A DNA stretch of 40,162 nt from Rhodobacterales bacterium (lineage in GTDB: Bacteria; Pseudomonadota; Alphaproteobacteria; Rhodobacterales; Rhodobacteraceae). Shown one piece after another: positions 16,629 to 22,427 of this stretch (position 1 is its first letter; each line of letters opens with the position of its first letter). The stretch lies in contig JAPLPF010000203.1 in the NCBI GenBank assembly GCA_026400325.1, forward strand, positions 1 through 40,162, in the 5' to 3' direction. Under the pieces are notes generated by a model. The model was not told the DNA's origin, ran no database searches, and saw only the letters and a program-made list of their open reading frames with translations. The position numbers and the translations under genes are program-made.

Positions 16629-17342
16629 ATGCGTATCCTGCTTGTTGAAGACGACCCCACCACATCGCGCAGCATCGAACTGATGCTGACCCACGCCAAT
16701 CTGAACGTCTATTGCACCGACATGGGCGAAGACGGCGTCGATCTGGCGAAGCTGTACGATTATGATCTTATCCTGCTGGACCTGAACCTGCCGGACATGA
16801 GCGGGCATGACGTGCTGCGCCAGATCCGGCAAGCGCGGGTGGAAACGCCGATCCTTATCCTGTCGGGGTCCGACGACACCGAAAGCAAGCTGAAAGGCTT
16901 CGGTTTCGGGGCGGATGACTATCTGACCAAGCCGTTTCACCGCGAGGAACTGGTGGCGCGCATTCACGCGATCATCCGCCGGTCCAAGGGCCACAGCCAG
17001 TCGGTGATCCGGACCGGGCCGGTCGCGGTCAACCTTGATGCCAAGACGGTCGAGGTTGAAGGCAAGACCGTGCATCTGACCGGCAAGGAATACCAGATGC
17101 TGGAGCTTTTGTCCCTGCGCAAGGGTACGACCCTGACCAAGGAGATGTTCCTTAACCATCTTTACGGCGGAATGGACGAGCCGGAACTGAAGATCATCGA
17201 CGTCTTCATCTGCAAGCTGCGCAAGAAGCTGGCCGAGGCGACGGGGGGCTTCAATTACATCGAAACGGTTTGGGGCCGGGGCTATGTGCTGCGCGATCCC
17301 GTAAGCAATGAGGTGGTCCCGAAGCTGGCGGCAAGCGCCTGA
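16629..17342 (+). CDS. ctrA: Cell cycle response regulator CtrA
   Basis: CtrA is the OmpR-type master regulator of alphaproteobacteria; in Rhodobacterales it mainly controls motility, gene transfer agents and competence rather than viability. The 237-residue product has a receiver domain with acidic pocket EDD (7-9), phospho-acceptor Asp51 ([12 protein letters not shown]) and the conserved Lys in [12 protein letters not shown]. The winged-helix output domain contains [42 protein letters not shown] and the wing [11 protein letters not shown]. No nearby kinase is seen; CckA and ChpT must be elsewhere. Confidence 0.96.
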
Positions 17343-21586
<4,244 letters not shown>

Positions 21587-21615
21587 CCGACTGCCCGTCC
21601 ACTGATGCAAGCCGA

Positions 21616-21651
21616 GAACATGATATGTTCGCGGATGTTCTTAAAAAGTTC
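21616..21651 (+). promoter_or_regulatory. LexA-type (SOS) operator, four phased half-sites
   Basis: GTTC-N7-GTTC at 21637-21651 (spacer TTAAAAA) is an exact match to the LexA box described for Rhodobacter and other alphaproteobacteria. Just upstream is a perfect palindrome GAACATGATATGTTC (21616-21630). The four half-sites begin at 21616, 21627, 21637 and 21648, spaced 11, 10 and 11 bases, so all face the same side of the helix. Confidence 0.6.
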
Positions 21652-21681
21652 TTTACAGGGCGGCGGAAAGATGAGAACAAT
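21652..21681 (+). promoter_or_regulatory. Predicted promoter next to the LexA box
   Basis: TTTACA (21652-21657), an 18-base spacer and AACAAT (21676-21681) suggest a start near 21688. The -35 abuts the last GTTC half-site, so a bound LexA would block it. The implied leader carries GGAGG five bases before the ATG at 21706. Confidence 0.4.
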
Positions 21682-21705
21682 ATGGCAACAAAAATGGAGG
21701 TCGCG

Positions 21706-21828
21706 ATGAAAGCCGCAGTCAGAACGCTTCTTGCCCATTCACCGCGTGGCGCGGTGGAGGACGTCATTGGTCTGGCCGCACTTTTCATTCTGCTTTTTGC
21801 AGTGCTTTCGCTGCCCGGCCTGTCCTAA
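21706..21828 (+). CDS. Small single-span membrane protein, candidate SOS-induced
   Basis: I do not recognise a named family. From ATG 21706, preceded by GGAGG at 21696-21700, it encodes 40 residues: a short basic amphipathic head (MKAAVRTLLAHSPRG), then one hydrophobic helix from about residue 20 to 38 rich in Leu, Ala, Ile and Phe, ending LPGLS. Longer in-frame forms are possible from ATG 21682, 21625 or 21583 (the last overlapping the recG stop), but only 21706 has a strong ribosome site and lies downstream of the predicted promoter. Size, topology and the LexA-like operator resemble small SOS division inhibitors such as Caulobacter SidA. That parallel is inference; there is no sequence proof. 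Confidence 0.6.
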   Translation: MKAAVRTLLAHSPRGAVEDVIGLAALFILLFAVLSLPGLS

Positions 21829-21918
21829 GAGTTCTGCCCCGCGCTCTGTCCCCCAAGGGTGACGGTTGTCCTGCCATCATCGATGGCCCGCCGTCCGCCG
21901 TTTCCAGAAGCGCTACTG

Positions 21919-21954
21919 CCGCCGCCGTCCCTTTGGACGTGCGGCGGTTTTTTT
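21919..21954 (+). terminator. Intrinsic terminator after recG and the small ORF
   Basis: A 12-bp GC-rich stem (CCGCCGCCGTCC with GGACG-T-GCGGCGG, one bulged T, loop CTTT) is followed by seven T. It lies 90 bases after the small membrane protein and before the convergent IscU-like gene. Confidence 0.85.
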
Positions 21955-21983
21955 CGTCGAAGATGCGGTATCGGCAGATGCGG

Positions 21984-22427
21984 CTAGGCTGCGGCCAAGG
22001 CGGCCTGCATGGCGTCGCACACCGCCTCGAGCGGCAGCAGGATCGAGGCATGCCGGTTCTTGTAGTCGCGGGCCGGCACCATGACCTCGTAGGCATCGAA
22101 GGGCGGCGGTGGAAGGGGGCCGCTGTCCTTCAGCATGGCGATCAACGCGTCGCGCGCGGTGACCAGTTCCGAAAGGCTGCGGCCGATCGCAACCTGGCCA
22201 AGGACCGCCGCCGAGGCTTGCCCCAGCGCGCAGGCCTTCACGTCCTGCGCAAAATCGACGATGAGCCCGTCCTTCACCACGACATCCGCCGTGACGGTTG
22301 ATCCGCAAAGAGGCGAGCGGCGCCGCGCCGTGCCCCCGGGCCCTGACAGGCGCCCCTGATGCGGAATGTCCGCAGCAAGTGCCAGGATGCGGGCAGAATA
22401 AAGCTTGATGAGGTCGGTGTCGCTCAT
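21984..22427 (-). CDS. IscU/NifU-like iron-sulfur scaffold protein
   Basis: A 147-residue member of the NifU N-terminal (SufU/IscU-like) family, expected to bind nascent Fe-S clusters or act as a sulfur acceptor. The start at ATG 22427 (MSDTDLIKLYSARILALA) matches the family form in Rhodobacterales. Two of the conserved cysteines are visible: Cys41 in SPLCGS and Cys66 in DVKACALGQAS; a further Cys lies near the C-terminus (EAVCDAM). It is divergent from hisI. The exact role (general scaffold or accessory) cannot be fixed from sequence. Confidence 0.8.
   Translation of the reverse strand: MSDTDLIKLYSARILALAADIPHQGRLSGPGGTARRRSPLCGSTVTADVVVKDGLIVDFAQDVKACALGQASAAVLGQVAIGRSLSELVTARDALIAMLKDSGPLPPPPFDAYEVMVPARDYKNRHASILLPLEAVCDAMQAALAAA

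Follow-up and report, generated by a model that had tools for sequence, protein, structure and literature searches.

The window analysed here, the whole 40,162-nucleotide stretch of DNA, lies on contig 26 of the 3.56-Mb genome of a Rhodobacterales bacterium. Within it, ctrA (16629-17342) directly precedes a ligA-recG pair, with ligA at 17400-19547 (LigA, 814 bits) and recG on the forward strand at 19544-21586 (NF008164, 1038 bits), overlapping the end of ligA. These are followed by a LexA-like region with a 40-residue open reading frame (ORF), for which recG is the directly upstream gene, and then by a SufU/NifU-like gene on the other strand. The ORF occupies 21706-21828 on the forward strand and is followed by a probable intrinsic terminator at 21918-21954 on the same strand (a 13-pair hairpin with one bulge and then a T run), which was recognised by folding and was not listed by a simple scanner. 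Because of this likely terminator and the position of the gene between recG and the opposite-strand SufU/NifU-like gene, the small gene looks monocistronic.

Upstream of the ORF, half-sites start at 21616 (GAAC), 21627, 21637 and 21648 (all GTTC), at the steps of 11, 10 and 11 bases that an earlier note on this DNA had described. The last two form the core LexA-type box GTTC-N7-GTTC (GTTCTTAAAAAGTTC, 21637-21651, forward strand), the first GTTC of the array (21627-21630, forward strand) starts 10 bases before it, and GAAC (21616-21619) is the outer half-site of an upstream palindrome. The promoter-like element that had been placed by the array was also recovered: a -35-like TTTACA (21652-21657, forward strand) abuts the last half-site and was paired by a promoter scanner, at 9 of 12 matches and a spacer of 18, with a -10-like AACAAT (21676-21681, forward strand; conserved alignment columns 28-33), which is weak and uncertain in its assignment. 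The strong ribosome-binding site previously reported before the ORF is GGAGG at 21696-21700 on the forward strand, ahead of ATG 21706, and an SD-like motif was present in 49 of 50 relatives. Of the first 30 loci examined, 29 have an ATG that opens a frame of exactly 40 codons and follows an SD-like motif (GGA or AGG at minimum), while the frame in locus L028 has 39. Since relatives keep 40 codons, ATG 21706 was taken as the right start, and the longer starts at ATG 21682 (48 residues) and ATG 21694 (44 residues) were rejected.

Conservation was assessed in 53 loci of relatives, which were the best-scoring tblastn and profile matches and are therefore a non-random set chosen by protein score, with loci picked by promoter pattern excluded. 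The earlier note had linked the small gene to recG and to the ligA-recG pair and had suggested looking for the recG-small ORF pair and the box in relatives. The small ORF lay directly behind recG on the same strand in 50 of the 53 loci (49 by script and L016 by eye, the automatic start calls being wrong for L004, L016 and L043), and ligA preceded recG in all 42 named loci with long enough sequence. An exact GTTC-N7-GTTC was found within 200 bases upstream of the small ORF in 50/53 loci and the triple GTTC-N6-GTTC-N7-GTTC in 43/53; in Markov shuffles of the 53 promoters the box occurred in a mean of 0.16 and a maximum of 2 of 53 and the triple in none. For 51 promoters, an alignment was anchored on the box itself, so that the box columns are invariant by construction; at fixed offsets from it, the outer GTTC was exact in 42 promoters, TT[TG]AC was present in 42 and a downstream GAAC in 44, all well above the flanks. 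A fourth half-site at a step of 10 or 11 bases was found in only 8 of 41 relatives, and the GAAC/GTTC palindrome at 21616-21630 was accordingly rejected as an operator.

Counts within the one genome behave differently from conservation between species. In the window, GTTC-N7-GTTC was seen twice against 1.03 expected, a count reached by 28 of 100 shuffles; across the whole genome the box occurred 110 times versus 144 for the reversed pattern, and the triple pattern once versus three times. Box statistics from the single genome are thus at chance level and were rejected as evidence, and it is conservation between species that marks the array as more than chance. The chance-level counts are what favours a reading in which the GTTC array is recognised by another regulator, or is maintained just for RNA polymerase, with the gene lying outside the SOS regulon; the comparison with lexA promoters described below makes that reading very improbable.

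The LexA box of Caulobacter is reported as GTTC-N7-GTTC (PMC12700426), and an in-silico list of LexA sites in Dinoroseobacter shibae, a member of the same family, likewise gives a GTTC-type motif, with sites at lexA, recA, dprA, pde2 and gene transfer agent (GTA), flagella and pilus genes (PMC6473078); its main text contains no recG, sulA, sidA or "division inhib". A lexA gene was present in 185 of 198 family genomes. The promoters of the best-scoring lexA matches, from 20 other genomes, all carried the exact box (20/20), and three phased half-sites were counted by eye in 14 of them. A matrix trained only on 30 lexA sites from these 20 promoters gave the site at 21634 on the forward strand, which covers the core box, the top rank of the window (16.8 bits, the next site reaching 13.6). 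In the genome under study, the same box was found upstream of lexA, recA, uvrD and uvrA, the last being an N-terminal fragment where a contig ends. Of the 110 sites, 100 were listed, and 20 stretches were chosen by hand from these, chiefly for an AT-rich spacer; five of the 20 lay at repair genes (lexA, recA, uvrA, uvrD and photolyase), the others within ORFs, at further genes or in places that were not identified. In other genomes, among them G063, G067, G003 and G082, some matches to the triple pattern lie a short way upstream of lexA as well. The matrix ranking and the shared boxes at lexA, recA, uvrA and uvrD both speak against another regulator, as does the finding that lexA and the small gene are missing together from 5 of 198 genomes where 1.2 would be expected (Fisher p 0.004), a figure confounded by genome incompleteness. 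Eight of the 198 genomes had the small protein and no lexA match, seven of them in at least 260 contigs and one 64% complete. The earlier proposal of a LexA-type operator is borne out by these comparisons, and from the motif the small gene is very probably under LexA/SOS control.

A second LexA-like box, GAAC-N7-CAAC, which the earlier note had overlooked, lies on the reverse strand at 21675-21689 (GAAC at 21675, CAAC at 21686), over the -10-like hexamer and the probable start region; its GAAC sits 27 bases past the start of the last half-site and its CAAC 11 bases further. GAAC-N7-[CG]AAC was present in 48 of 51 relatives' promoters, whereas no other spacing in the range 0-20 gave more than four, and in 45 of the 51 the box was within one base of the same offset. 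An exact GAAC-N7-GAAC occurs at this position in L026, L028 and L058, with a fourth exact match, in L025, further downstream. By the lexA-trained matrix the second box is the seventh best site of the window (6.6 bits) and the best reverse-strand site in 41 of 50 promoters; its scores over all promoters range from -1.7 to 17.0 bits, so it is weak in many genomes. Since the second box covers the -10-like hexamer, the core promoter is bracketed by opposed LexA-like boxes. The double operator put forward in the earlier note therefore stands insofar as two LexA-like boxes are conserved, but not as the pair then named, the partner of the core box being the opposed box at 21675-21689 and not the unconserved palindrome.

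The small protein has the consensus M-x3-[IVL]-[KR]...R-S..T..(E/Q)-D19-x-x-G22..(A/S)-L....L...L-x-L-P-G. D19 and G22 were invariant in 110/110 forty-residue members, L34 was present in 109 and P37 in 106, in a set that includes some sequences chosen with a bonus for D..G; some of the diverged ORFs in genomes missed by the profile lack G22. No charged residue was found at positions 20-36 in any of the 110 members, and residues 1-18 carry a mean net charge of about +1.2. AlphaFold2 placed helices at 2-11 and 13-35 (mean pLDDT 84, pTM 0.48), and the predicted topology is N-in with a single span and almost nothing outside, in line with the small membrane protein that had been noted at this position. 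Searches of Pfam, NCBIfam and PHROGs gave no credible match to a named family; weak matches of single members to Gluconate_2-dh3, DUF3149, an antiporter subunit and one PHROG (E 0.025 to 0.092) were set aside. For 2781 non-independent pairs with dS below 1.5, the ORF had a median dN/dS of 0.51, and 2681 of these pairs were below 1; among the 25 pairs with the smallest dS, however, 18 exceeded 1, and dN/dS was therefore not used as evidence.

The distribution of the gene was followed first by protein similarity. By tblastn, the small ORF was detected in 73 of 295 family genomes, and a profile built from 30 members found by tblastn matched in 179 of 198 family genomes, some of these matches being weak (E up to 0.01), and gave no match in the other 19. 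Both ORF and box are thus clearly conserved, against the possibility raised earlier that neither would be. In a class-wide alphaproteobacterial sample, 4 of 289 genomes matched, all of them Rhodobacteraceae, and the 20 genomes listed from the 285 unmatched all belong to other families; as far as sampled, the protein family appears restricted to Rhodobacteraceae. Three genomes (G002, G105 and G187) have two profile matches each, perhaps small-protein paralogues.

The gene was also approached from the promoter side. A scan of species genomes with the promoter pattern GTTCNNNNNTGTTCNNNNAAAGTTCTTTAC returned at least 118 stretches; among the 118 listed, recG lay upstream in 115, a small hydrophobic ORF downstream in 115 and both in 112, so that the promoter pattern alone retrieves the gene. 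When ORFs were first chosen, in 80 pattern stretches, those with D..G, ATG, SD and a length of 40 codons were favoured; the figures for all 118 listed come from a test free of this bonus. Of the six exceptions, L221, L225, L239 and L241 end too early, L230 is without recG and L171 without a fitting ORF. By name, 113 of the 118 listed are of Rhodobacteraceae type, and five are metagenome-assembled genomes named only Alphaproteobacteria or Pseudomonadota. Among 30 genomes with no or a weak profile match, recG was found in 24 and the box behind it in 12 of these (4 of 13 without a match and 8 of 11 with a weak one), each of the 12 loci having at least one diverged hydrophobic ORF of 34-50 codons; in the other 12 of the 24, no box was found behind recG. 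Where the box is present in such genomes, the putative operator outlasts recognisable similarity of the protein. Behind recG of alphaproteobacteria outside the family, the box was found in 0 of 28 genomes (30 were taken and 2 were too short), and an arrangement wider than Rhodobacteraceae was rejected.

SidA of Caulobacter crescentus, a 29-residue inner-membrane inhibitor of division induced by the SOS response, is reported to interact with FtsW (PMC4211646). The gene described here resembles sidA in being alphaproteobacterial and in encoding a very small, LexA-controlled membrane protein, its size, topology and regulation being predicted from sequence. It differs in length (40 residues against 29), in its fixed place behind recG, in its triple half-site array with an opposed second box, and in a profile that matched, in the class-wide sample, the four genomes of its own family and none of the other 285; the comparison draws on how small the protein is, on its predicted topology and regulation and on the lack of SulA. 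SulA (PF03846) was found in 0 of 100 family genomes, with the E. coli control detected, and the 40-residue protein itself gave no match to PF03846. A checkpoint effector like SidA fits because the operator is tight and of damage type, the membrane protein is tiny, the gene is retained across the family and SulA is absent from those 100 genomes. The best explanation is that the protein is probably a membrane-acting, SidA-like inhibitor of division induced by the SOS response.

On that explanation, LexA in an undamaged cell would occupy both the GTTC array abutting the -35 and the inverted box over the -10 and shut the promoter tightly; upon damage, activated RecA would lead to cleavage of LexA and the 40-residue protein would be made. 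Its short, mostly basic N-terminal helix would remain in the cytoplasm, an uncharged transmembrane helix would begin near the invariant D19-x-x-G22 and a tiny LPG tail would reach the periplasm; the protein would most likely delay division by binding to one of the transmembrane proteins of the divisome (FtsW, FtsI or FtsN), as SidA does in Caulobacter. By analogy, we consider this topology together with inhibition of division likely. Small SOS-induced membrane inhibitors that target FtsW or its partners are described as a recurrent solution (PMC4211646, PMC13396833), and a 2026 paper calls small membrane division inhibitors a "seemingly widespread" mechanism (PMC13396833). YneA, SosA and ChiZ, damage-induced inhibitors of other bacteria that act late in division, are likewise small and membrane-bound, damage induction being presumed for the protein studied here; YneA and ChiZ have a LysM domain and SosA an extended outside region (PMC13396833), whereas the predicted outside part of the 40-residue protein is a few residues.

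The conservation of D-x-x-G and of small residues points to a dedicated partner, which could also belong to a part of the damage response other than the arrest of division. The protein would then be a LexA-controlled membrane factor with another task, such as the regulation of a transporter, a protease or a kinase, possibly in the CckA-CtrA relay; a same-strand CtrA match of more than 60% identity does lie upstream in 25 of the 27 named loci whose sequence is long enough. That linkage may reflect merely a stable chromosome segment, and the partner is hypothetical, so that we regard this alternative as rather unlikely.

TisB and DinQ are LexA-controlled membrane peptides of E. coli, and the protein studied here shares with them its size, one predicted span and LexA-type control; the LexA-type operator and its tight layout would equally suit a SOS-induced peptide of this type that inserts in the inner membrane and lowers the membrane potential, causing dormancy with the divisome unblocked. 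A long structured leader and an antisense RNA are usual in type I toxin systems, and neither was seen at the small gene: the distance from the -10-like hexamer to the ATG is 21-62 bases (median 34, 48 loci), no Rfam match was found in 21400-22100 and no antisense RNA was recognised, an unfamiliar one being possible. The span, moreover, is uncharged and conserved at the single positions given above, more like that of a protein with a specific partner, and the gene is chromosomal and kept across the family; at E 0.01, neither the plasmid nor the phage collections contained a match to the one member used as query. The short leader and uncharged span make a TisB-like toxin the less likely reading, and we judge it improbable.

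Returning to the SidA-like inhibitor, a more specific form of the proposal would have two opposed LexA operators bracketing the -35 and -10 of a family-wide, undescribed SOS checkpoint effector of Rhodobacteraceae, with at least two LexA dimers clamping or looping the short promoter and with the operator more conserved than the protein; we hold this combination only tentatively, at somewhat under an even chance. Rhodobacteraceae are abundant marine and phototrophic bacteria, and in the open-access literature we found no account of how they halt division during DNA damage and no description of the 40-residue gene behind recG. With SulA absent from the 100 genomes tested, the small gene is a near-universal candidate for the brake on division in these bacteria at times of damage. 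Also of note is a conserved 40-residue gene without a credible match in Pfam, NCBIfam or PHROGs, under an operator layout (phased triple array and opposed box) that single-box LexA models miss.

Three further observations concern LexA-type boxes elsewhere. Since 14 of the 20 lexA promoters (L093-L112) have three GTTC in 10/11-base phase, extended LexA arrays may be common in Rhodobacteraceae. In the genome under study, the box at L118:1480-1494 (C40:27879) overlaps the start of a DNA photolyase gene (Pfam PF00875/PF03441), and photorepair may thus be under LexA. A PA0069-family radical SAM gene has an AT-rich box at its 5' end (L119:1540; C45:11639 of the same genome).
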